Shown here: positions 14,564-38,832 of the stretch, piece after piece
Numbering within the stretch: the stretch's first letter is position 1
Layout of the letters: every line of letters begins with the position of its first letter
Assembly: GCA_017858055.1 (NCBI GenBank)
Contig: JAFMCA010000013.1
Location: 1 to 53,748 of the forward strand
From: Flavobacteriaceae bacterium
GTDB lineage: Bacteria; Bacteroidota; Bacteroidia; Flavobacteriales; Flavobacteriaceae
Direction of reading: 5' to 3'
Length of the DNA stretch: 53,748 nt
The notes under the pieces: generated by a model
Told to the model about the DNA's origin: nothing
The model's database searches: none
Seen by the model: the letters and a program-made list of their open reading frames with translations, nothing else
Made by a program: the position numbers and the translations under genes

Positions 14564-15847
14564 TTAGTCTCTGAGGGGTTTTATTTTTTCTCGAATAGCG
14601 TCTAATCCGAGATTACCGATGCTTCCCAAATGAGTGTGTTGAACTGATCTGTTGGGGTTGAATTCATTTTTTTCTATGGCCTTTCCCAATTCTCTATAGG
14701 CATCTCGGAAGGGTTTTCCTGCCAAGACTTCAGCGTTTAGGGTATCTACACTAAATAGATAATCGTATTTTTTTTGGTCGGTGATGTTTGGTCGTACTTC
14801 AAGCTTGGGTAAGCTAAAGAGTAAAATGTCCAAACAAGCTTTCAGTTCTTGTACTGCTTCGATGATGGGACCTTTAGCCAGTTGTAATTCTCTGTGGTAT
14901 CCACTGGGTAAATTGGCTGTCAAAAGTGCCAATTGGTTAGGAAGAGCTTGTAGTGTATTGCATTTTCCTCTAACCAGTTCAAAAAGATCTGGATTTTTTT
15001 TATGCGGCATGATGCTGGAGCCAGTGGTGAGGTCGGCGGGGAAACTAATAAAGTCAAAATCTTGTCCCATATAAAGACAAATATCCATACTTAATCGAGC
15101 CAAACTACTCCCAATACTAGACAACGCCATAGCGGTACTTTTTTCTAATTTTCCGCGGCTCATTTGTGCTGCTACTGCATTTATTTTGATTTGTTGAAAG
15201 CCCAATAATTCAGTAGTTAATTCTCGATCAATTGGAAAAGAGCTCCCATAACCAGCAGCACTTCCCAAAGGATTTTGATCGGCTATTTTATATGCTGCAT
15301 CCCAGAAATAGAGGTCGTCTATCAAACTCTCGGCATAGGCAGAAAGCCACATGCCTATGGAGGAGGGCATGGCCACCTGGAGGTGGGTGTAGCCGGGGAG
15401 CAATTGATTTTGGTGTTGTTCTGCTAAATTGAGGAGAAGGTCAAAAAGGGAGACAACCTGGGTCTTGATTTCTTTCAATTCGTGTTTTAAGTAGAGATGC
15501 AGGGCAACCAACACCTGGTCATTTCGAGAGCGTGCGGTATGTATTTTCTTACCTAAATCCCCCAAAGTTTCGGTTAGGAGATGTTCAATTTTGGAGTGCA
15601 TGTCCTCAAAGGTTTCCTCAATGGTGAAATTCCCTTCTTCAGCATCTGCCTTGAGTTTATCCAAAACAGTACAAAGCTGTTCAGCTTCTAAAGGGGTGAT
15701 CAGTCCGATAGAACCCAACATTTTAGCATGCGCCATAGAAGCTTCACAATCGTATGCTGCTAGAACTAAATCGTATTCACGGTCTTTACCAACGGTGAAG
15801 TGATCTACTTTTTGATGAGCCGCAGCCCCTTTTTGCCAAAGTTTCAT
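14564..15847 (-). CDS. argH: Argininosuccinate lyase
   Basis: ArgH splits argininosuccinate into arginine and fumarate, the last step of arginine synthesis. The 427-residue protein shows the fumarase/aspartase-superfamily signature GSSIMPHKKNPD (about residues 276-287) with the catalytic Ser, the ARSRNDQVL block near residue 105 and the TPLEAEQL and HTHLQVAMP-like region with the substrate-binding residues. It is slightly shorter than E. coli ArgH because the N-terminus starts directly at LWQKG. It is the last gene of the operon, 4 bp after argE. Confidence 0.96.
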   Translation of the reverse strand: MKLWQKGAAAHQKVDHFTVGKDREYDLVLAAYDCEASMAHAKMLGSIGLITPLEAEQLCTVLDKLKADAEEGNFTIEETFEDMHSKIEHLLTETLGDLGKKIHTARSRNDQVLVALHLYLKHELKEIKTQVVSLFDLLLNLAEQHQNQLLPGYTHLQVAMPSSIGMWLSAYAESLIDDLYFWDAAYKIADQNPLGSAAGYGSSFPIDRELTTELLGFQQIKINAVAAQMSRGKLEKSTAMALSSIGSSLARLSMDICLYMGQDFDFISFPADLTTGSSIMPHKKNPDLFELVRGKCNTLQALPNQLALLTANLPSGYHRELQLAKGPIIEAVQELKACLDILLFSLPKLEVRPNITDQKKYDYLFSVDTLNAEVLAGKPFRDAYRELGKAIEKNEFNPNRSVQHTHLGSIGNLGLDAIREKIKPLRD

Positions 15848-15851
15848 AGGT

Positions 15852-16901
15852 CTATAAAATTTGTTTTAATAGATTGATATAAAAGGAAATGCCCTCTTCA
15901 ATTTCTTTAACATAGATAAATTCATCTGCAGAATGTGATCGGGTAGAATCGCCTGGCCCTAACTTAAGCGAAGGACAATCCAGACCCGCTTGATCTGAAA
16001 GGGTAGGTGAACCATAAGTTTTTTTACCTAAACGTATTCCAGCCAAAACTAAGGGATGCTCGGGGTTGATAGAAGAACTCTTTAATCTTAAGGATCGAGC
16101 ACTTACTTTACAATCCAAACGAGATTGAACAATTTCCTCGATTTCTTCATTCGTATAGCATTCGTTTACCCGTACGTCAAGTACGAGATTGACTTCAGAA
16201 GGGACCACATTATGTTGTTTTCCCGCATTTACTTGAGTTAATGTAGCTTTTACAGCGCCGAGTATTGGGGAGACCTTTTCAAACTGGAGTTGTTCTATTG
16301 CCTGAATCAATTGGGGTAATCTCATCAAAGGATTATCGTTATTTGGATGTGCTGCATGACTTGCAGTTCCTTTAAGACTTAAATCAAAAACGACCAATCC
16401 TTTTTCTGCTATGGCTAAATCCATTAAAGTAGGTTCACCTACAATAGCCACATCAATTTTTGGAAGGTCAGGAAGGAGATAACGCAAACTTTTTTCACCT
16501 GCACTTTCTTCTTCCGCAGAGGCAACCATCAGTAGATTGTATGCCAAATTTCGTTTTTCAAAATAATGGGTAAATGTAGCGATAAGAGATACCAAGGCTC
16601 CCCCAGCATCATTACTTCCCAATCCGAAGAGTTTTCCCTCTTCAATGTCAGGACTGAATGGATCTCGTTGGTATCCCTGATTGGGCTGCACGGTGTCGTG
16701 ATGGGAATTGAGAAGCAACGTTGGTTTGTTTGGGTCGAAATACTTATTCGTTGCCCAAAGATTATTATCCTTTCTCTGAAACGGAATAGCGTAGGTATGA
16801 AACCATTCTTCCAATCGGGCAGCTGTTTTATCCTCAGCCCCTGAAAAGGATTCCAGTCGGATTAAATCTTGTAATAATAAAATGGCATTTTGGGTGAGCA
16901 T
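15852..16901 (-). CDS. argE: M20-family N-acylcitrulline/N-acylornithine deacylase
   Basis: The 349-residue zinc metallohydrolase belongs to the M20 family. Metal-binding blocks are visible: LLNSHHDTVQPN (first His and the following Asp), GSNDAGGALVS (bridging Asp) and ASAEEESAGEKSL (catalytic Glu pair), with the dimerisation domain in between and SHSADEF near the C-terminus. Because the operon carries a transcarbamylase of the N-acylornithine type, the likely substrate is N-acetyl- (or N-succinyl-) citrulline rather than N-acetylornithine; that is inferred from context. The ATG overlaps the argB stop, so the two are probably coupled. Confidence 0.88.
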   Translation of the reverse strand: MLTQNAILLLQDLIRLESFSGAEDKTAARLEEWFHTYAIPFQRKDNNLWATNKYFDPNKPTLLLNSHHDTVQPNQGYQRDPFSPDIEEGKLFGLGSNDAGGALVSLIATFTHYFEKRNLAYNLLMVASAEEESAGEKSLRYLLPDLPKIDVAIVGEPTLMDLAIAEKGLVVFDLSLKGTASHAAHPNNDNPLMRLPQLIQAIEQLQFEKVSPILGAVKATLTQVNAGKQHNVVPSEVNLVLDVRVNECYTNEEIEEIVQSRLDCKVSARSLRLKSSSINPEHPLVLAGIRLGKKTYGSPTLSDQAGLDCPSLKLGPGDSTRSHSADEFIYVKEIEEGISFYINLLKQIL

Positions 16902-17674
16902 CAGTTTGTTATTTGGGTACAGTTAACAGTTTCAGTGATCATTTTTGGATTCCCAATTCTTACCTTGGTGACACCAGCTTTTAGGGCTAAAAAGCAGTTG
17001 TGAAGTTTAGGAAGCATTCCTGTATGAAGTATTCCTTTGGATTTTAAATCGTGGTAAAGCGCTTCATCTAGGATCTGTATCAGGCTGGATCCATCATTTA
17101 AATCTTTTAGGACTCCATTTTTTTCAAAGCAGTAGTTTAAATGCACTTCAAAATAAGGCGCTAAAGAAGATGCAACCGTCGCAGCAATGGTATCTGCATT
17201 GGTATTGAGCAATTGTCCATTTCCATCGTGGGAAAGTGCACAACATACGGGACTGATACCATTCTTGAGCAGCAGTTGAAATAACTTATGATTTACTTCG
17301 GTTAAATCGCCTACAAAACCAAAATCAATAGGATGGGGCGGTCTTTTTTTAGCGAGAATGCTATTGCCATCGGCACCTGTTAAGCCGAGACTGTTGCAAT
17401 TTAAACGTTGAAGTTGAGCGACGATGGTTTTATTCAATTTCCCAGCATACAGCATGGTAATGATTTCAAGATTCTGAGCGTCTGTTACCCGTCTTCCCTC
17501 GATTAGTTGGACCTTTATCCCTAGCTTTTCAGCCATTTGAGTAGCTTCTTTTCCACCCCCGTGAACTAAAATTTTAGGTCCTTTAAGAGCAGCAAAATCC
17601 GTTAAAAAATCCAAAAGAGCTTCTCGATTTTCGATGACATTTCCTCCGATTTTTACAACATGAAGCTTATCCAT
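16901..17674 (-). CDS. argB: Acetylglutamate kinase
   Basis: ArgB phosphorylates N-acylglutamate, the second step of arginine synthesis. The 257-residue protein has the amino-acid-kinase fold: KIGGNVIEN at the N-terminus, the glycine loop ILVHGGGKEATQMAEKLG, the EGRRVTDAQNLEIITM segment that binds the substrate, and LNTNADTIAATVASSL. It is short and lacks the N-terminal helix found in arginine-inhibited hexameric forms, so feedback inhibition by arginine through that helix is unlikely. It overlaps argF' by 8 bp. Confidence 0.95.
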   Translation of the reverse strand: MDKLHVVKIGGNVIENREALLDFLTDFAALKGPKILVHGGGKEATQMAEKLGIKVQLIEGRRVTDAQNLEIITMLYAGKLNKTIVAQLQRLNCNSLGLTGADGNSILAKKRPPHPIDFGFVGDLTEVNHKLFQLLLKNGISPVCCALSHDGNGQLLNTNADTIAATVASSLAPYFEVHLNYCFEKNGVLKDLNDGSSLIQILDEALYHDLKSKGILHTGMLPKLHNCFLALKAGVTKVRIGNPKMITETVNCTQITN

Positions 17675-18614
17675 TTTGCAGAATTTGTTTTAAAACCCAT
17701 TGGGCAGCATAGGTTCTGTTGTTGGCTTGTTGAATAACTAATGAATTCGAATTGTCCAATACATCATCTGCTACCACTACATTTCTTCTAACGGGTAAAC
17801 AGTGCATAAACTTTGCATTGTTGGTCAGTTTCATTTTTTCGGCGGTCAACATCCAAGTATCGTCGGTTCGCAAAATTTTCCCATACTCTTGATAGGAACA
17901 CCAGTTTTTTGCATAAACAAAATCGGCTCCTTCCAGGGCTTCCTCTTGATTGTAAATCAAAGGTGTATTTTTGGTGATTCTGGGGTCCAACTCGTATCCT
18001 TTCGGTTGCGCAATAACATAATCCGCATCCAAACGTTGAACCATATTGCTGAATGAATTTCCTACAGCATGGGGAAGTGCTTTTGGATGAGGAGCCCAAG
18101 TCAATACGATTTTAGGTCTTTTGTTGAGCGTATGTTCGTGAATGGTTACAGCATCGGCGAGTGCCTGAAGGGGATGTGCTGTTGCACTCTCCATATTAAT
18201 TACCGGGATGCTTGCATAACGTGCAAAGTTATTTAGAACCTGTTCTTCTTCGTCTTTTTGTTTGTCACTTAAAGAGGCAAAAGCTCGGATTGCAACCACA
18301 TCACAGTATTGAGAAACTACTGCAGCAGCTTCTTTAATATGTTCTGAACGCAATCCACTCATTTTTGTACCGTCTTCAAATTCCAGAGCCCATGCTTCAT
18401 TAGAAAAATTCATCACCATGGTTTTTAATCCCAAATGCTGAGCTGCTTTTTGAGTGCTTAGTCGTGTTCGTAAACTTGGATTAAAAAATAACATCCCTAA
18501 GGTTTTGTGTTTCCCCAGTTGTTCAAATGCAAAAGCATCTTTTTTTAGAGTTCGAATTTCCTGAACGGCGTTGTTTAAATCGGGTATGGCATCTAAAGTG
18601 ATAAAATGTTTCAT
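17667..18614 (-). CDS. argF': N-acetyl- or N-succinyl-ornithine carbamoyltransferase
   Basis: The 315-residue protein carbamoylates an N-acylated ornithine to N-acylcitrulline. It has the carbamoyl-phosphate loop FNPSLRTRLSTQKAA (usual STRTR replaced by SLRTR, as in this subfamily) and ESATAHPLQALADA. It also has the LTWAPHPKALPHAVGNSF segment typical of the acyl-ornithine enzymes instead of the HCLP/DxxxSMG pattern of ordinary OTCases; HCLPVRRN follows near the C-terminus. The residue thought to separate acetyl- (Glu) from succinyl-specific (Pro) enzymes appears from memory to align with Ser90 in GLRSEHIKEA, so I do not choose between them. It lies between argD and argB in the operon. Confidence 0.88.
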   Translation of the reverse strand: MKHFITLDAIPDLNNAVQEIRTLKKDAFAFEQLGKHKTLGMLFFNPSLRTRLSTQKAAQHLGLKTMVMNFSNEAWALEFEDGTKMSGLRSEHIKEAAAVVSQYCDVVAIRAFASLSDKQKDEEEQVLNNFARYASIPVINMESATAHPLQALADAVTIHEHTLNKRPKIVLTWAPHPKALPHAVGNSFSNMVQRLDADYVIAQPKGYELDPRITKNTPLIYNQEEALEGADFVYAKNWCSYQEYGKILRTDDTWMLTAEKMKLTNNAKFMHCLPVRRNVVVADDVLDNSNSLVIQQANNRTYAAQWVLKQILQNG

Positions 18615-18623
18615 TAGCTGGAA

Positions 18624-19757
18624 TTACAGATTTTCTATGACAATTTTTAATGCATTAAAAAAAGTGTCAAAGTGAGATTTTTGTACGGTTAATGGAGGCA
18701 AAATACGGATCAAATTTTTATTACTACTCCCACCCGTAAAAATATGATGTTCATAGATTAATTTTTTTCGGAGTGAAGCTACTTCGAAGTCAAACTCCAA
18801 GCCGAGCATTAAGCCACGTCCTTTTACTTTTTTGATTTGAGGAAGTTTTTGGGCTAGCACTCTGAAATAGGTTTCCAACTCTTTAGTGCGTTCTTGCAAA
18901 CGCTCTTTTTCGAGAACCTCTAATACGGCTAAAGAGGCTGCGCAGGCTAAATGACTCCCCCCAAAGGTAGTGCCTAACAGGCCAAATTTTGCTTGAATCT
19001 CAGGATGTACCAATATGCCTCCTATGGGAAACCCATTTCCCATACCTTTTGCCATCGTAATTACATGAGGTTTAATACGGTATTTTTGATAGGCAAAAAA
19101 GGTACCTGATCTACTGAAACCTGACTGTACCTCATCAGCAATTAGGCAACTGCCATATTTGTTGCAAAGGGATTCCATAGCATAGACAAAATCCTCATCC
19201 GGTTCATCCAAACCCCCTACACCTTGAATGCTTTCAAAAATTACGGCACAGTAACTTTCTGTTGCCAACTCTCTTTCTAAAGCCTCCGCATCGTTGAATG
19301 GAAGAAATACCACTTCATGTTGACTGTTTAGTGGAGCATTGATCGCGGGATTATCGGTTACCGCCACCGCTGCCGAGGTTCTTCCATGAAAAGCTCCTTT
19401 AAAAGCAATTACTTTTTTTCTTGCGGTATGAAATGAGGCCAGTTTGAGTGCATTTTCAATGGCTTCTGCCCCTGAACTGCACAAAAACAAACTGTAGTCG
19501 TGGAGACAGGATTGTTCTCCTATAGCGTTTGCCAATTCTTTTTGTAAAGGATTTTGAATGGCATTGGAGTAAAATGCAATCTGTTCTAATTGCTGACGGA
19601 TTCTTTTAACGTAGTGGGGATGGGTATGTCCAATGCTGATAACTGCATGACCGCCATATAAGTCGAGGTATTCAACCCCCTTATCATCATAGACATAAAC
19701 GTCCTTTGCGCGAACAGGTGTTACTTCATAGAGTGGATAAACTTCAAATAAATTCAT
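18624..19757 (-). CDS. argD: Acetylornithine aminotransferase
   Basis: ArgD is a class III PLP transaminase that converts N-acylglutamate semialdehyde to N-acylornithine. The 377-residue protein shows YLDLYGGHAVISIGHTHP, the phosphate-binding SSGAEAIENALKLA, the LIADEVQSGFSRSGTFFA strand with the PLP-nitrogen Asp, and the Schiff-base lysine in ITMAKGMGNGFPIGG. All catalytic parts are present. It starts 1 bp upstream of the preceding proC stop region and is 9 bp from argF', so it is clearly in the operon. Confidence 0.95.
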   Translation of the reverse strand: MNLFEVYPLYEVTPVRAKDVYVYDDKGVEYLDLYGGHAVISIGHTHPHYVKRIRQQLEQIAFYSNAIQNPLQKELANAIGEQSCLHDYSLFLCSSGAEAIENALKLASFHTARKKVIAFKGAFHGRTSAAVAVTDNPAINAPLNSQHEVVFLPFNDAEALERELATESYCAVIFESIQGVGGLDEPDEDFVYAMESLCNKYGSCLIADEVQSGFSRSGTFFAYQKYRIKPHVITMAKGMGNGFPIGGILVHPEIQAKFGLLGTTFGGSHLACAASLAVLEVLEKERLQERTKELETYFRVLAQKLPQIKKVKGRGLMLGLEFDFEVASLRKKLIYEHHIFTGGSSNKNLIRILPPLTVQKSHFDTFFNALKIVIENL

Positions 19758-20552
19758 TTACTGTTTTGCGATTTCGTTGATTTTATCAAAAGAAGCGTTC
19801 AGCCCTTTGATAAGGGAAGAGCTTAATCCTTGATGTTCCATTTCGTTTAAACCTGTAATGGTACAGCCTCTGGGAGTAGTTACTCGGTCAATTTCTTCCT
19901 CTGGATGTGTTCCTGCTTCGATGAGCAAACTTGCTGCTCCTCGAGCTGTATACATGGACATTTTTAAGGCTACATCCGCATCAAATCCCATCTGAACACC
20001 ACCTTGGGTAGTTGCTCGGATTAAACGCATCCAAAATGCGATTCCGCTCGCACAAAGTACTGTTGCAGCCTGCATAAGATTTTCTTCTATTGCGAGACTT
20101 GTTCCCAACCCATTGAATATGGCTTCTGCAATGGGTAGTTTTTTCTTACCTGCCGTATTGTTACACAAACAGGTCATAGATTTTCCAACGGAAATCGCCG
20201 TATTGGGCATGGCACGGACAATCGGAATTTCATCACCAATAACCGCCTCGATTCGTGAAATGGAAAATCCAGTTATGGTGGAAATAACGACGTGTTTATC
20301 GTTTAAGTGTGGTTTGATCTCTTGTAAAATGGTTTCCAATTGACTGGGCTGTACCGAAAAAATTAGAATGTCTGCATTTTTTACTGCTTCTTTATTGTCG
20401 TTGGTGATAAAGACACTTTTGTATTCTTCGTATTCCTTGATATCGTCTAGGTTTCTCTTGGTGAGGTATAAATCGGTATAGGTGTTGTTGACAATCAGTC
20501 CTTTGGCAATACTCAAACCTAAATTTCCAGTTCCAATGATGGCTATTTTCAT
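19758..20552 (-). CDS. proC: Pyrroline-5-carboxylate reductase
   Basis: ProC makes proline from 1-pyrroline-5-carboxylate with NAD(P)H. The 264-residue protein has the N-terminal Rossmann motif IIGTGNLGLSIAKGL, the VRAMPNTAISVGKSMTCL block and the C-terminal signature (about 225-245: TTPRGCTITGLNEME), with GGVQMGF-like dimer-interface sequence. It lies inside the arginine operon between argC and argD, an arrangement common in Bacteroidota that ties proline and arginine synthesis through glutamate semialdehyde chemistry. No proA or proB is in this window, so the source of its substrate is not shown. Confidence 0.93.
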   Translation of the reverse strand: MKIAIIGTGNLGLSIAKGLIVNNTYTDLYLTKRNLDDIKEYEEYKSVFITNDNKEAVKNADILIFSVQPSQLETILQEIKPHLNDKHVVISTITGFSISRIEAVIGDEIPIVRAMPNTAISVGKSMTCLCNNTAGKKKLPIAEAIFNGLGTSLAIEENLMQAATVLCASGIAFWMRLIRATTQGGVQMGFDADVALKMSMYTARGAASLLIEAGTHPEEEIDRVTTPRGCTITGLNEMEHQGLSSSLIKGLNASFDKINEIAKQ

Positions 20553-20564
20553 ATTATTTAATTT

Positions 20565-21536
20565 TTAAAAAGCGGTAGCTTTTAGTTGTAATCCGAGTGT
20601 TTCTTCCCATCCCATGATGAGGTTGGTATTTTGAATCGCTTGTCCAGAGGCCCCTTTAATCAAATTGTCGATACAACTCGTAATGAGTAGGGTATTCTCA
20701 TGAAGGTGCAGATGGATAAAGCAATGGTTTGTTCCTGTAACAGATTTCAAATCGAGTGGTACTGTTGAAATATGAGTAAACGGATGGTTGTTGTAAAAAT
20801 CCTCATATAATTTTTGAGCAGTTTCTAACGAATCGTTAAAAGTGGTATAGGCCGTAGCGAAAATTCCTCGTGTAAAATTACCTCTTTGTGGCAAAAAGAA
20901 AAGATCTGCAGCAGATTCCATTTGGTTTAACGTTCTGTGAATTTCTCCTAAATGTTGATGCGTAAAAGGTTTGTACCAAGAGAGGTTATTGTTTCTCCAG
21001 CTGAAATGACTTGTAGGGCTTAACCCAACGCCAGCTCCTGTACTGCCTGTAGTAGCGTTAATGTGAACAGCAGTTTTGAGAAGTTGATTTTGAGCCAAGG
21101 GAAGCAAGGCCAACTGTATGGCGGTAGCAAAACAACCCGGATTGGCGATGGCATTGGCATTTTCTATTGCAGTTTTCTGAAGTTCTGGAAGACCATATAC
21201 AAAAGTTTTATCAAGAAATTGATTTTCTCCCTCTAAACGGAAATCATTACCCAAGTCCACGATTAGAGTTTCTTTTGAAAATGAATTTGCATTTAAAAAT
21301 TCCCTTGATTTTCCATGCCCTAGACATAAAAACAAAACAGCTACATCTGGATTTACAGTACCAGTAAAATTTAGACTTGTTTGTCCCAACAAATCGAGGT
21401 GGGCAGAGTGCAATGGTTTTCCAGCGCGTGTTGTACTGTAAACAAAATCGAGTTCCATAGCAGGATGGTGCAGGATCAATCGAATGAGTTCTCCCCCCGT
21501 ATATCCTGAACCTCCTATGATACCAACACTTTTCAT
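20565..21536 (-). CDS. argC: N-acetyl-gamma-glutamyl-phosphate reductase
   Basis: ArgC reduces N-acylglutamyl phosphate to the semialdehyde with NADPH. The 323-residue protein has the nucleotide motif GIIGGSGYTGGELIRLI, the active-site Cys in ANPGCFATAIQLALLPL and FLPQRGNFTRGIFATAYT near the second half, where the catalytic His is normally found; here the stretch HLGEIHRTL precedes it. The start overlaps the argG stop by 4 bp (ATGA type). Confidence 0.95.
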   Translation of the reverse strand: MKSVGIIGGSGYTGGELIRLILHHPAMELDFVYSTTRAGKPLHSAHLDLLGQTSLNFTGTVNPDVAVLFLCLGHGKSREFLNANSFSKETLIVDLGNDFRLEGENQFLDKTFVYGLPELQKTAIENANAIANPGCFATAIQLALLPLAQNQLLKTAVHINATTGSTGAGVGLSPTSHFSWRNNNLSWYKPFTHQHLGEIHRTLNQMESAADLFFLPQRGNFTRGIFATAYTTFNDSLETAQKLYEDFYNNHPFTHISTVPLDLKSVTGTNHCFIHLHLHENTLLITSCIDNLIKGASGQAIQNTNLIMGWEETLGLQLKATAF

Positions 21537-22723
21537 TTTTTTGAATTTAAGTGTTGATATATCTTAGTTGCGTTAGCGGTAAGCTTGATAAAACCTTTTG
21601 CCTCGTCCGCCGTCCAGCCTTTGTTCATTTCACCGTAACTACCAAATTCTGCTTGCATCAAATCGAAAGGAGATTGAATGCCAAGTAATTCAAATCGATA
21701 AGGGTGAAGTTTTACAAAAACCGAACCCGTCACCCGACCTTGACTACTTTCCATAAAAGCTTCAATATCTCGCATCACTGGATCCAGATATTGTCCTTCG
21801 TGTAATTGCATGCCATAGAAGTTTGCCATTTGTTCTTTTTGAAACTGTTGCCATTTACTCAAGGTGTGTTTTTCAAGTAAATGATGCGCTTTAATCAGAA
21901 TTAACGGGGCTGCAGCTTCAAAACCTACCCGACCTTTAATTCCTATAATGGTATCGCCTACATGAATATCCCTACCTATAGCAAATTGTTTTGCCTGGTC
22001 TTGGAGTTTTTGAATAAGGCTTACGGAATCCGATTTAACTCCATCAATTCCTACCAACTCTCCTTTTTCAAATTCCAGTTCAACATTGGTCGGGTCGGTT
22101 TGAAGTAGCGGATTCGGATAGGCGGCATCGGGAAGGGGTAAGTGAGAGCTCAACGTTTCTGCACCTCCAACACTAGTGCCCCAAAGCCCTTGATTGATTG
22201 AGTATTGTGCTTTTTCCCAGGGAATGTCGATACCTTCTTTTTTGAGGTAAGCGATTTCATCTTCCCTTGAGAGCTGATGGTCTCGTATCAGTGTGATGAT
22301 TTTTATTTCGGGGGCCAGGACTTGGAAAATCAAGTCAAAACGAACTTGGTCATTGCCTGCCCCAGTGCTTCCATGAGCGATGTATTTGGCACCAATTTTT
22401 TTAGCGTATTGAACAATTTCTATGGCTTGGATAATGCGTTCTGCACTAACTGATAAGGGATAGGTGTTGTTTTTTAATACATTTCCAAAGAGTAAAAACT
22501 TGACAATTTTCTGATAAAAGGAAGCTAATGCATCAATGTTTTGATAGGTATAAGCTCCCATCTGAACGGCCTTGGCTTCGATAATTTTGATTTCTTCTTT
22601 GGAAAAACCTCCTGTATTTACACTCACGGCATGAACCTCATAGCCCTCTTGAGATAATTTTCTCAAGGAGTACGAAGTGTCTAAGCCACCACTGTAGGCC
22701 AATACTAAAGTTTCTTTATTCAT
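21533..22723 (-). CDS. argG: Argininosuccinate synthase
   Basis: ArgG joins citrulline and aspartate with ATP. The 396-residue protein has the ATP-pyrophosphatase loop LAYSGGLDTSYSL at the N-terminus and the family block GSTGAGNDQVRFD (about residues 117-129) with the substrate-binding Gly-Asn-Asp. Compared with other bacterial ArgG proteins the sequence is of the divergent Bacteroidota type. It overlaps the GNAT gene by 4 bp and is the second gene of the operon. Confidence 0.95.
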   Translation of the reverse strand: MNKETLVLAYSGGLDTSYSLRKLSQEGYEVHAVSVNTGGFSKEEIKIIEAKAVQMGAYTYQNIDALASFYQKIVKFLLFGNVLKNNTYPLSVSAERIIQAIEIVQYAKKIGAKYIAHGSTGAGNDQVRFDLIFQVLAPEIKIITLIRDHQLSREDEIAYLKKEGIDIPWEKAQYSINQGLWGTSVGGAETLSSHLPLPDAAYPNPLLQTDPTNVELEFEKGELVGIDGVKSDSVSLIQKLQDQAKQFAIGRDIHVGDTIIGIKGRVGFEAAAPLILIKAHHLLEKHTLSKWQQFQKEQMANFYGMQLHEGQYLDPVMRDIEAFMESSQGRVTGSVFVKLHPYRFELLGIQSPFDLMQAEFGSYGEMNKGWTADEAKGFIKLTANATKIYQHLNSKK

Positions 22724-23331
22724 GAGTTATTCTTTTTTAAGAAAAGAGTTTGTTTGATTTTTTTTAATCGTTCAAGTACTTTCTGATTAAAAGGCTTTGG
22801 TTTGCTGTTTTCTTTTGGATCGTAAAGCATCCCAGTACACAAACACATTTTTCGTTCAGTTCGGGTTAAGACATCGTAATTTTTACAGGTCTGACATCCT
22901 TTCCAAAATTCTGGATCATCGGTCAGTTCAGAAAAATGAACGGGTTTATACCCTAACTGATAGTTTATTTTCATCACAGCCATTCCCGTGGTGATCCCAA
23001 AAACTTTGGCATCAGGATATTTTTCCAAAGAAAGATCAAAAACTTTTTTTTTGATTTTCCTTGCGAGCCCTTGTCCTCTGTATTCTGGAGCAACGATGAG
23101 CCCCGAATGCGCGACATATTTGCCGTGGCCCCAGACTTCGATATAGCAAAACCCTGCAAATGCCTCCCCATCCAAAGCGATGACTGCATTTCCGTTTTTC
23201 ATTTTGGTGTGAATGTATTCTGGTGTTCTTCTCGCAATTCCAGTTCCTCTGGATTTGGCAGACTCGTCAATGCATTCACTAATTGTTTTTGCGTAAGTAA
23301 TATGTTCCGCTTTAGCGCGAATTATTTTCAT
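22720..23331 (-). CDS. GNAT acetyltransferase heading the arginine operon (probable N-acylglutamate synthase)
   Basis: The 203-residue protein has one GNAT domain with the acetyl-CoA loop in VAPEYRGQGLARKI (80-93, Arg-Gly-x-Gly-x-Ala) and the following GITTGMAVMKINYQLGYKP strand-helix. The C-terminal tail has four cysteines in CQTC (146-149) and CLC (163-165), suggesting a small metal site. As the first gene of an operon that otherwise lacks argA, argJ and the argA-type kinase fusion, it is the best candidate for making N-acetyl- or N-succinylglutamate. That role is inferred from position and matches the known lack of classical argA in Bacteroidota. Its leader carries an apparent attenuator. 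Confidence 0.82.
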   Translation of the reverse strand: MKIIRAKAEHITYAKTISECIDESAKSRGTGIARRTPEYIHTKMKNGNAVIALDGEAFAGFCYIEVWGHGKYVAHSGLIVAPEYRGQGLARKIKKKVFDLSLEKYPDAKVFGITTGMAVMKINYQLGYKPVHFSELTDDPEFWKGCQTCKNYDVLTRTERKMCLCTGMLYDPKENSKPKPFNQKVLERLKKIKQTLFLKKNNS

Positions 23332-23349: not shown

Positions 23350-23454
23350 GAAAAAAATAATGTTTGTTCGTCAAGGGAGAAGGGCTCACCATACTCCATA
23401 ATAAATTACACCCCAAAGGGGCGAGGACGAACGATGCGCAACGGGTTCGTTGCG
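23350..23454 (-). promoter_or_regulatory. Candidate attenuator of the arginine operon
   Basis: Reading along the minus strand, a perfect 7-bp hairpin (CGCAACG, loop AACC, CGTTGCG; 23437-23454, last base pair at 23437/23454 included with its 7 bp) is followed by GTTCGTC (23426-23432). That segment can pair with GACGAAC (23366-23372), which is followed by AAACAT and TTATTTTTTT (23350-23360). CTCGCC next to the 5' arm can also pair with GGTGAG inside the loop, lengthening the stem with one G-U pair. GTTCGT can alternatively pair with ACGAAC (23445-23450) in the first hairpin. This gives pause hairpin, antiterminator and terminator in the classical order. The Arg codons of the leader ORF lie on the 5' arm of the terminator. 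Not folded by program. Confidence 0.6.
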
Positions 23455-23492
23455 ACATTAAGTAGTACAAGATGTTGATTCGTCTCAAACAT
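23406..23492 (-). CDS. Arginine-operon leader peptide (28 codons)
   Basis: An ATG at 23492 opens a 28-codon frame ending TAA at 23406, between the apparent promoter and the GNAT gene. It starts MFETNQHLVLL and ends LRIVRPRPFGV, with arginines at residues 19, 22 and 24 (codons CGC, CGT and CGC), all in the last third. The Arg codons lie just after the pause-type hairpin and on the 5' arm of the terminator-like stem, as expected for a ribosome-mediated attenuator sensing charged tRNA-Arg. It has no membrane or signal features and is too short to be an enzyme. The identification rests on position, codon content and the overlapping RNA structure. Confidence 0.6.
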   Translation of the reverse strand: MFETNQHLVLLNVATNPLRIVRPRPFGV

Positions 23493-23499
23493 GATTGCA

Positions 23500-23530
23500 C
23501 AAATGTCTTTTATTTTTTTTATTTGAACAA
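23500..23530 (-). promoter_or_regulatory. Putative promoter of the arginine operon
   Basis: On the minus strand a TTG (23528-23530) is followed after 20 bp by GACATTTG (23500-23507), one base from the consensus TAnnTTTG. Transcription would start near 23494, a few bases before the ATG of the leader peptide, so the leader may be nearly leaderless. Confidence 0.45.
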
Positions 23531-23586
23531 ACATAATACACTAAAATCGATACCCTGAGTTTAAAAATGGTTGGAATGGATATGCT

Positions 23587-23598: not shown

Positions 23599-24906
23599 GT
23601 GGAAGATAAAACTTTAGATCCTATTCGAAAAACTTTGATGGGTTTAGCCCAAGAGAAGCTGCTTTTAGCTCATAGTGGCGGGATCGACAGTTCGGTATTG
23701 GCACATTTACTCCTCACTGAAAAGATTCCATTTAGTGTTGCGCATTGTAATTTTCAATTGAGAGAAAAGGAGAGTGACGAAGATGCTTTTTTTGTAAAAA
23801 ATTGGTGTGAAGTAAACCAAATTAGACATCATGCAAAGCGCTTTGATACCCTTCAATATAAAATTGAACACAAACTAGGTACCCAAGAAGCTGCAAGAAC
23901 ATTACGTTATCAGTGGTTTGAAAGTTTACGTGAAATCCATGATTATACGGCAGTACTTACGGCTCACCATCTAAACGATCAATTGGAGTCTTTTCTGATG
24001 TACTCTACACGAGGAACTGGGCTGAACGGCTTGCTGGGTATTCCGGAGTCGGATTGGGTTCGACGTCCGTTGCTTAGTGTGACCAAAGAGGAGATTCGGG
24101 CTTATGCTAAAGACCATCAAATTCTCTGGCGTGAAGATTCCTCCAATGATACGGAAGATTATTTGCGAAATCAATTCCGACACAGTGTGGTAGCGTCCAT
24201 AGTGTCCATTCAGCCGAAAGCTCTCCTCAATTTTAAGACCACTTTAAATCACCTTACTGCAGCAAATGATTTTATTCAAGCCCAGTTAAGGGAATTGAAA
24301 TCAAAAATATTTTTCAAAAATTCGGATTCAACGACAATTTTACTATCAACATTAGATGCCCTTCCTCAAAAAGAATTTTGTATCCATCATTGGTTTTCAC
24401 CACTGGGGTTTGCATCAAGCGAAGTACTAAAATTACTCCAAGCTCCTAAAGGGAAGGCATTGTATAGTGCCACTCATCGACTAATGCGAGAACGTGATTC
24501 TTTTGTTCTTTCCCTAGTAGCGGAGGATGAAATTTCAGAATTTCATTTTGAAATCGAAACTCCTAAAACACAACTCCCAATTTCACTGAAATGGGAGGTT
24601 CAAGTAAATGAAGGAAAAATTTATAAGAACACCTTTTTGGCAGCATTGGATAAAAAGAAGTTAAAAAAAACACTACTCCTAAGAAAATATCAAAAAGGAG
24701 ACTATTTTTACCCCACAGGGATGCAGGGAAAAAAACTACTTAGTAAATTTTTTAAAGACGAAAAATACAGTACTCTGCAAAAAGAAGCCCAATGGATCCT
24801 TTGCTCTGGAGATCAGATTGTTTGGGTCGTTGGAAAACGCTGCGACAATCGTTTTGCTGCTAATGAAACCACAGAAGAGATTCTATTAATGAAGTGTGAA
24901 TTATGA
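23599..24906 (+). CDS. tilS: tRNA(Ile)-lysidine synthase
   Basis: TilS adds lysine to C34 of the tRNA-Ile that reads AUA. The 435-residue protein has the ATP-pyrophosphatase loop LLLAHSGGIDSSVL (SGGIDS at 26-31), followed by TAHHLNDQLESFLMYSTRGTGLNGL and REDSSNDTEDYLRNQFRH, the conserved blocks of the catalytic domain. A TilS C-terminal domain follows (LRKYQKGDYFYPTGMQGKKLLSKFFKDEK). The first start is GTG at 23599; no upstream start exists in frame before a stop. An ATG 13 codons later (23638) would leave only seven residues before the ATP loop, so it is less likely, although the -7 box position leaves it possible. It overlaps the downstream gene by 4 bp. Confidence 0.94.
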   Translation: MEDKTLDPIRKTLMGLAQEKLLLAHSGGIDSSVLAHLLLTEKIPFSVAHCNFQLREKESDEDAFFVKNWCEVNQIRHHAKRFDTLQYKIEHKLGTQEAARTLRYQWFESLREIHDYTAVLTAHHLNDQLESFLMYSTRGTGLNGLLGIPESDWVRRPLLSVTKEEIRAYAKDHQILWREDSSNDTEDYLRNQFRHSVVASIVSIQPKALLNFKTTLNHLTAANDFIQAQLRELKSKIFFKNSDSTTILLSTLDALPQKEFCIHHWFSPLGFASSEVLKLLQAPKGKALYSATHRLMRERDSFVLSLVAEDEISEFHFEIETPKTQLPISLKWEVQVNEGKIYKNTFLAALDKKKLKKTLLLRKYQKGDYFYPTGMQGKKLLSKFFKDEKYSTLQKEAQWILCSGDQIVWVVGKRCDNRFAANETTEEILLMKCEL

Positions 24907-37155: not shown

Positions 37156-38832
37156 ATGTCACTAAACAAATACAGTAAAGCAGTTACTCAAGATCCAACA
37201 CAACCCGCAGCACAAGCGATGCTGCACGCGATTGGGATGAGTGATGAAGACTTTAAAAAACCTTTAATCGGAATCGCTTCAACGGGCTATGAGGGGAATC
37301 CCTGCAACATGCACCTGAACGATTTGGCGCAAGATATTAAAGTTGGCGTTAATGCTCAATCTTTAGTGGGTCTAGTTTTTAACACCATTGGAGTAAGTGA
37401 TGGAATTTCTATGGGAACTCCAGGAATGCGCTTTTCATTGCCCTCACGAGATATTATCGCGGATTCAATTGAAACGGTTGTACAAGCCATGTCGTATGAC
37501 GGAGTGGTAACGGTTGTGGGTTGTGACAAAAACATGCCAGGCGCCTTAATGGCAATGCTGCGTTTAAACCGACCTGGAATACTAATGTATGGAGGTACGA
37601 TTGCTGCAGGGTGTCATAACGATAAAGAACTGGACGTTGTCTCAGCCTTTGAAGCCTGGGGAGAAAAAGTAGCAGGAACAATCAACGAAGAGGAATACAA
37701 AAATGTGATTCGAAAAGCTTGCCCCGGAGCCGGTGCTTGCGGAGGAATGTACACAGCAAATACGATGGCCTCTGCCATTGAAGCGTGTGGAATGGCGTTG
37801 CCTTACAATGCATCGAATCCAGCGGTTAGTAAAGATAAAAAAGAGGAATGTGGAGCTTTAGGTGCTTACCTTAAAAACCTTTTGGAAAAAGATTTAAAAC
37901 CAAGGGACATTGTCACTCGGAAATCACTTGAAAATGCGATGCGTTTAATTGCTGTATTGGGGGGATCTACCAATGCGGTATTGCACTTTCTGGCTATTGC
38001 AAAAGCTGCCAACATCGAATTGAGCATTGATGATTTTCAAAAAATTAGCGATACGACTCCTTTTCTTGCGGATTTAAAACCGAGTGGAAAGTATCTGATG
38101 AAAGATTTACATTTAGTTGGTGGAGTGCCTGCAGTTTTAAAATACATGTTGGCTAAAGGAATGTTACATGGGGATTGTATTACAGTTACCGGAAAAACCT
38201 TAGCCGAGAATCTTGCTGCTGTACCGGACTTATCGGAAGGGCAGACCGTTATTCGCCCTTTAGAAAACCCAATTAAACCAACGGGACATATTCGGATTCT
38301 CAAAGGAAATCTAGCGGAAGGTGGATCGGTTGCTAAAATTACTGGAAAAGAAGGCTTGTTATTTACCGGTCCTGCTCGTGTATTTGATGGAGAATATGCT
38401 GCAAATCAAGGAATAAAGGAAGGCAAAGTTAAAGCAGGAGAAGTGGTTGTAATCCGCTATGAAGGACCCAAAGGGGGACCTGGAATGCCAGAAATGCTAA
38501 AACCCACCGCGGCCATTATGGGAGCAGGTTTGGGAAAAAGTGTAGCATTGATCACCGATGGTCGTTTCTCTGGAGGAACGCATGGCTTCGTCGTGGGACA
38601 TATTGTTCCTGAAGCGCAAGAGGGTGGTGCTTTAGGTTTGCTCCAGGACGGAGATGTAATAACAATAGATGCAGAAAAAAATACACTCAGTGTAGCTTTA
38701 AGTGATGCAGAACTGGCACAACGAAAAGCAGCATGGAAAAAACCACCTTATAAATTCGATCAAGGAGTGCTTTACAAATACATAAAAAGTGTGGCAACAG
38801 CCTCTGAAGGTTGTGTTACTGATTCCAATTAG
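37156..38832 (+). CDS. ilvD: Dihydroxy-acid dehydratase
   Basis: IlvD dehydrates dihydroxy-isovalerate and dihydroxy-methylvalerate, the third common step of Val/Ile synthesis. The 558-residue protein has the iron-sulphur cysteines in [20 protein letters not shown] and [16 protein letters not shown], and the C-terminal [12 protein letters not shown] and [15 protein letters not shown] blocks. All expected ligands are present. It is the first gene of ilvDBNCA and lies 2 bp before ilvB. Confidence 0.97.

Follow-up and report, generated by a model that had tools for sequence, protein, structure and literature searches.

A short open reading frame immediately upstream of the arginine biosynthesis operon of a Flavobacteriaceae bacterium probably serves, together with the hairpins in and behind it, as a cis-acting arginine sensor read by the translating ribosome, i.e. 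as an attenuator. The window, that is, the whole stretch of 53,748 nucleotides analysed here (contig JAFMCA010000013.1 of assembly GCA_017858055.1), contains one copy of this arrangement. Comparison with related genomes shows the leader ORF, its arginine codons, two hairpins (H2 and H3), the spacing of these hairpins and the linkage to the arg operon.

The operon consists of nine genes, including the GNAT N-acetyltransferase gene at its head, and its argF' gene codes for an N-acetylornithine carbamoyltransferase (Table 1). Since the scores of GNAT, argG (by 1 bit), argD and the deacylase lie below the NCBIfam cut-offs, these names are based on Pfam, the best match and the gene neighbourhood. 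On the other side of the leader ORF, a divergent plus-strand gene (23599-24906) looks like tilS. Farther along the window, an ilvD-type gene is located on the plus strand, from 37156 onwards (PF00920 match at 37258-38211). In its upstream region no leader ORF of the arg or his kind stands out, but a GAATATGG-like motif is common to relatives at this place.

Table 1 Features of the arginine leader and its operon in the window
Feature	Position	Strand	Basis
Putative promoter: TTTG (23531-23528), 20-nt spacer, GACATTTG (23507-23500)	23500..23531	minus	Sequence reading
Leader ORF, 28 codons	23406..23492	minus	Direct sequence reading and comparison with relatives
H1, CGCAACG/CGTTGCG, just before the Arg codons	23437..23454	minus	Folding versus shuffles, swap scan
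H2, CGCCCC-TTT-GGGGTG, last Arg codon up to the stop codon	23409..23423	minus	Comparison
H3, GGAG-TAT-GG-TGAGC-CC-TT-CTCC	23376..23397	minus	Covariation, swap scan
GACGAAC, originally proposed partner of the Arg codons	23366..23372	minus	Matched mainly in near relatives
GNAT N-acetyltransferase, first gene of the operon	22720..23331	minus	
argG-argC-proC-argD-argF'-argB-ArgE/DapE-type deacylase-argH	14564..22723	minus	

Direct reading of the window bears out the 28-codon frame of the original prediction, MFETNQHLVLLNVATNPLRIVRPRPFGV, which extends from an ATG at 23492-23490 to a TAA at 23408-23406 and contains just three, non-consecutive Arg codons at positions 19 (CGC), 22 (CGT) and 24 (CGC). 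Likewise, the predicted 7-bp hairpin is found as CGCAACG-AACC-CGTTGCG (H1), the complementarity of GTTCGTC (23426-23432) to GACGAAC is present as letters, and the alternative partner ACGAAC (23445-23450) is complementary to GTTCGT as stated. Because the promoter-like pair of boxes ends 7 nt before the leader ATG, the transcript may be leaderless or nearly so; the upstream TTTG is presumably the upstream element of this promoter. A promoter box of the form TAnnTTTG is described in excerpts of PMC9723704. Across the leaders with an ATG after the box, the gap between the two has its mode at 7 nt (35 of 92) and measures 6-10 nt in 51 of 92, in a scan which chose a different, upstream box for the window itself. 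Starting from a loosely scored box and ignoring the frame, the next ATG is open and in frame with the Arg codons in 79 of 98 leaders.

The predicted arginine leader peptide in front of the arg operon, with a hairpin ahead of its Arg codons, is supported by the relatives. In a search that required Arg-Pro near the ORF end, such a short ORF was recovered before the GNAT gene in the window and in 78 of 80 loci encoding GNAT relatives (the best 80 of 411 qualifying stretches), while in the remaining two (L001, L037) the upstream region is cut by the contig end. The leaders usually end in RRRRP-stop (Maribacter, Zobellia, Muricauda and kin) or, in the window's clade, in RRRPFGV-stop. Among 100 leaders, comprising the window and 99 loci (97 distinct, as L043, L044 and L084 are identical and so are L062 and L083), arginine accounts for 268 of the 1000 codons in the ten-codon stretch ahead of the last Arg codon; at least two Arg occur there in 92 leaders, and L009 has none besides the last one. 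These Arg codons are CGT (160) or CGC (97) in 257 of 268 cases (96%). A recount over 93 distinct, correctly framed leaders, which omits the duplicates as well as L096 and L100 (wrong frame in the 100-leader count), gives 252 Arg in 930 codons, at least two Arg in 87 leaders and 242 CGT/CGC among the 252. In comparison, the GNAT and argG genes of the 80 loci contain 1556 Arg in 47863 codons (3.3%), of which 431 (27.7%) are CGT/CGC, so that an Arg share of 27% in the leader stretch stands against 3% in the genes behind it. As in a classical attenuator, the leader ORF holds codons for the operon's own amino acid. In three close groups, pN/pS amounts to 0.41, 0.52 and 0.35 in the true frame and to 0.71-1.51 in shifted frames, which shows, as far as substitution patterns tell, purifying selection on the leader frame. 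The codon signal is weak in the window's clade (0.83 in the true frame, 0.93 and 1.16 in shifted ones) and in the Maribacter group (0.78 versus 0.87 and 0.79), since true-frame values there lie near the shifted ones. On the comparative evidence, the 28-codon frame is judged to be a conserved leader ORF and more than a product of chance.

The two best-conserved structures of the region, H2 and H3, had been missed in the original prediction. H1 occurs at an equal place in many relatives, with other sequence between groups, and is absent in some (e.g. the L021 group); against shuffles, its segment has a mean z of -1.37 over 98 leaders, with 58 of them below -1. H2 has the nearly invariant general form CGCCC-loop-GGGTG, and a two-sided change to CGCAC/GTGCG is seen in L161, whose leader ends in Arg-Thr. 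The stop codon is located in the H2 loop in 63 of 97 leaders (+6) and just after H2 in 33, including the window (+15). Although the stop position moves from +6 to +15, the spacing of H2 and H3 is fixed: the H3 apex, GGTGNG(T/C)CC in most relatives, is found 33 or 34 nt from the H2 start in 88 of 98 leaders. L057 and L094, for which no H3 was found by pattern, are left out of the 98-leader counts, and L102 is additionally left out of the 97-leader count. In L057 (2880-2955), H2 is present and an unrelated 10-bp hairpin with T-rich sequence replaces H3 (model E 0.064).

Covariation in H3 is strong, as judged from aligned sequences. Two-sided changes affect 5 pairs in a MAFFT alignment of 32 sequences and all 6 outer pairs among 74 distinct sequences; in the latter alignment, which was made by the covariance model and leans towards the structure, 95.1% of cells are paired compared with 87.1% after shuffling and 41-64% in slid versions. 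In a scan of 66 leaders that needs no alignment and compares own with swapped partners, H3 stands far above the rest, with 80% versus 27% (z 9.4); near-identical leaders had been removed from this set as well as from the 69-leader set used below. For H2 (29% own versus 18% swapped, z 3.0), for H1 (11% versus 2%, z 3.2) and for the pairing of the Arg region with the sequence behind H3 (11% versus 1%, z 3.9, third by difference), the scan provides no proof, since pairs without known role reach z 4.0.

Such conservation would also suit an H2-H3 unit that is bound by a protein or ligand, with the ORF only placing ribosomes and the Arg codons arising as a by-product of a CG-rich strand. Across H2 and H3, twelve columns are invariant in 56 aligned sequences, and five of these columns belong to the H3 apex (sequences added later vary, L097 and L101 having GATG), the H2-H3 spacing stays constant while the stop shifts, and 96% of the Arg codons are CGT/CGC. 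This explanation is nevertheless considered improbable: in 96 of 97 leaders the first Arg codon within the eight codons examined precedes the last one by 3-24 nt, at varied places, the third bases of the Arg codons vary between CGT and CGC, and the frame appears to be under purifying selection in the three close groups.

The element is widespread in the family. Covariance model R1 yields one match in the own genome and matches 26 of 296 genomes of the order, 22 times upstream of GNAT-argG and four times falsely (L103-L106, weak matches with no arg gene behind them). Of 299 genomes of the family, model R2 (E 0.01) matches 186, which belong to 152 of 236 genera, and gives no match in the other 113. 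All 20 further strong places picked for checking are upstream of GNAT-argG (18 of them new, L145 and L158 repeating L079 and L055), and 42 of the 46 family matches checked lie before GNAT-argG, the exceptions being four weak ones (L175-L178, E 0.0016-0.0091). Some genomes of the family have two or three R2 matches, of which the extras were inspected for G079 and G201 only. Of 395 genomes searched across the phylum, 29 have a match at E 0.01, and all 16 with E below 1e-5 are from this family. By tblastn, 13 of 14 weak places (ten outside the family, four inside) lack an arg gene; 13 of the 14 (all but L178) were also read as sequence. Upstream alignment for conserved Arg codons, the check suggested with the original prediction, thus finds ORF, Arg codons and hairpins conserved far beyond the own genome. 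A chance ORF next to an unrelated structure, for which the weak codon signal in the window's own clade would be the single argument, is given almost no credence against matches in so many genera and the conservation of both ORF and H3.

Bacteroid-trp RNA is a regulatory RNA of the leader-peptide type. It is listed as a Bacteroidetes cis-regulatory RNA (RF01692) in excerpts of PMC2864571, and the present element differs from it in that neither the window nor the two tested element-bearing loci (L046, L093) match any Rfam family at gathering score. At a relaxed E-value, the window segment produced four Rfam matches only, all with E above 3. A known Rfam RNA as identity of the element was therefore rejected. 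In L137 (51-140, minus strand), Flavo-1 RNA (RF01705) was detected, which Rfam lists without a known function.

Genus g2 contributes zero genomes to the 26 order matches, and in those of its arg operons that were read the element is missing. Six g2 loci (L123, L124, L126, L128, L132, L133; 520 nt) have a different conserved, near-leaderless ORF before GNAT, for example MNKISLHITSLSRTN...SPEVRMLSL, with a pair of conserved CGG codons plus two hairpins; about 235-242 nt lie between the end of this ORF and the GNAT gene. The last 150 nt before GNAT in L135-L139, from genomes without the leader (three g2, two g51), carry repeated AGATA...TATCT-like palindromes, which look like candidate operators of a DNA-binding regulator. 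The original prediction had named ArgR as the regulator to be expected in this phylum. This expectation does not hold for the genomes searched: the ArgR profile PF01316 has no match in the own genome and one borderline match (G039) in 196 genomes of the order, with a positive Bacteroides control. The leader hence occurs in a lineage without ArgR, and the arginine repressor is apparently not the regulator here.

In a classical transcription attenuator, H2 would correspond to the 1:2 hairpin, an antiterminator 2:3 would form upon stalling, and H3 would be the intrinsic terminator 3:4. The order of parts and the place of the stop codon fit this scheme, and a loose search assigns a terminator-like site to 52 of the 100 arg leaders, window included. 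However, 51 of these sites are H2 or overlap H2 and have a merely U-rich tail, and the one in L057 is another hairpin. Directly behind H3, a T-rich stretch is absent in 92 of 98 leaders and present in six (L021, L024, L025, L029, L032, L061), even by a loose rule, for which reason H3 was rejected as a canonical terminator. An intrinsic terminator before the first gene was accordingly not found.

The original prediction had assigned this function to a different helix, GTTCGTC/GACGAAC, which would enclose a 53-nt loop. The T-rich run announced behind GACGAAC exists in the window but begins 5 nt further on (23360 downwards), whereas in a textbook terminator it would adjoin the helix directly. Beyond the window, the helix did not stand up as a terminator: Arg-region helices of at least 6 bp with the sequence behind H3 occur in 7 of 98 leaders (7.1% versus 6.3% shuffled), and among 69 leaders a helix score of at least 13 is reached in 10% of own and 7% of swapped combinations. 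The best scores are confined to the window, its near relatives (L002, L004, L005, L006, L011, L012, L019) and L030, and therefore this may be a clade-limited helix around H2 and H3 and not the conserved switch. One two-sided change in it distinguishes L011 from L006. As a conserved switch it was rejected, not being conserved beyond near relatives.

For the antiterminator, the freed 3' arm of H2 pairs better with its own downstream RNA in 26 of 98 leaders (mean -8.0 own, -9.1 swapped), and the best candidate of the swap scan (a+10 with b+3) reaches 11% versus 4% (z 2.3). Since swapped downstream RNA thus suits the H2 arm at least as well as its own does, a mutually exclusive antiterminator pairing was not found. 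A contact between GGTG in the H3 apex and CGCC in H2 (12% own versus 6% swapped) was rejected as well: both are nearly invariant, and the contact is disrupted in several leaders, where the apex reads GATG (L097/L101) or GGTA or GGTT (L021 group). In modelled ribosome states, the mean H3 probability hardly differs (0.46-0.53). For the window, the model gives 0.67 without ribosome, 0.65-0.66 with a ribosome stalled on Arg and 0.00 with one at the stop. Masking of the H3 base by a ribosome at the stop is possible only with the stop at +15 (33 of 97), not at +6 (63 of 97), and such blocking is, by this modelling, not the family rule. On these results, the classical antiterminator-terminator scheme is unsupported, and as an account of the arg leader it is regarded as rather unlikely.

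The same scheme appears, by sequence, to be realized elsewhere in the family and in the phylum, which speaks in its favour. The hisG leaders of seven of seven genomes of the family, own genome included, possess canonical terminators, combining two or three consecutive His codons with an 11-14 bp terminator and U-tract (his operon leaders L107-L113, that of the own genome being L113, G000:C20). The arg leader differs from them in having no U-tract after H3 in 92 of 98 cases and no detected antiterminator. Furthermore, a weak phylum match (E 0.0046) in G588 is located before an ornithine carbamoyltransferase gene. Within the class of G588, relatives of this gene were found in 20 of 145 genomes at E 1e-30, 19 of them with upstream sequence (L179-L197). 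All 19 have, within about 100-280 nt upstream of the gene, a short ORF in which three to five Arg codons follow one another (e.g. ...NLRRRRPLGV-stop) and a strong canonical terminator. The stretch after the Arg codons pairs better with the 5' side of its own terminator than with swapped ones in 15 of 19 (-17.2 versus -15.7 kcal/mol); compared with shuffled versions of the same stretch, the gain is modest (z -0.4 to -4.1). Going by its sequence, this leader has the anatomy of a textbook arginine attenuator, and its likeness to the flavobacterial leader in the leader end and H2 may reflect descent or convergence.

For the reading preferred here, an arginine sensor read by the ribosome, we infer the stalling of the ribosome, the direction of control and the output step as follows. 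Transcription would start at or just before the leader ATG, and the ribosome would read about 20-30 codons, meet H1 in many members and then enter the CGT/CGC Arg run, which leads into the 5' side of H2. With charged tRNA-Arg scarce, it would stall on the Arg codons and cover the 5' arm of H2, leaving the downstream RNA in one state. With plentiful arginine, it would reach the stop in or just after H2 and leave, so that H2 and H3 could form and expression of GNAT-argG-argC-proC-argD-argF'-argB-argE-argH would fall. Nascent-peptide arrest by the Arg-Pro end is not favoured, because L161 ends in Arg-Thr with a compensated H2 and because type-B leaders (L012, L026) go on after Pro with Gly/Trp while the hairpin is kept.

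As to the output, we lean slightly towards premature loss of the transcript near H3, be it through Rho-aided or other non-canonical termination or through decay; control of GNAT gene translation appears doubtful, and anything else fairly improbable. The broader alternative of translational or mRNA-stability control, in which the ribosome position sets the folding near the downstream start or exposes the RNA to decay, is thought unlikely. Precedents without intrinsic terminator exist (excerpts of PMC6386406, PMC9031893 and PMC1262725) and the promoter-like box is close to the leader ATG, but some 45 nt separate the end of H3 from the GNAT start, and the modelled access to this start has nearly equal means in all ribosome states (0.49-0.52). 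Tentatively, and with more doubt than confidence, a family-wide arginine attenuator without intrinsic terminator can be envisaged, in which the ribosome position on CGT/CGC codons is read by the new H2-H3 element via a protein, Rho or decay, substituting for the missing ArgR. The second class in the phylum would have kept the textbook version, so that these systems may preserve the trace of a sensor common to both whose output changed in evolution.

The leader resembles the his and trp attenuators in its short ORF, which would lie at the start of the transcript, in its run of cognate codons with hairpins behind, and in the matching biosynthesis operon downstream. According to excerpts of PMC6386406, two consecutive Arg codons sense arginine in Salmonella orf34, the speF leader, and the outcome depends on hairpins located at the stop codon and immediately behind it, as would be the case here; orf34 differs in controlling ornithine decarboxylase, in being induced by ornithine too and in having its Arg codons at positions 12 and 13 of 34. 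The mycobacterial poly-Cys ORFs are leaderless short ORFs, as the arg leader may be, and share with it control codons near the stop and the lack of an obvious terminator (excerpts of PMC9031893 and PMC1262725), but respond to cysteine, and no conserved hairpins were seen in PMC1262725. Arginine is likewise sensed by leader-peptide Arg codons in S. aureus rbfL, which in contrast uses AGG/AGA codons, blocks a ribosome-binding site by pausing and targets a biofilm regulator (excerpts of PMC13009471). A carA leader peptide of Pseudomonas aeruginosa is mentioned in excerpts of PMC4997734.

Within the phylum, excerpts of PMC9723704 report clues for leader-peptide attenuation before amino-acid operons in one Flavobacterium and name hisG and pheA elements; hence, leader-peptide attenuation as a kind is known. 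Excerpts of PMC2965389 and PMC11668279 contain nothing on the arg operons of this phylum, and among the literature matches listed none describes an arginine attenuator in front of an arg biosynthesis operon of the phylum. The arginine case, the RNA element and the missing terminator thus appear to be undescribed in the literature searched. The leader suggests a way in which flavobacteria could regulate their arginine synthesis in the absence of ArgR, and arginine biosynthesis would join the operons with likely leader-peptide control in the phylum. Additionally, it supplies an unnamed and widespread RNA element with strong covariation, most members of which have no obvious terminator, and this element would permit a direct test of whether the phylum uses non-canonical attenuation.
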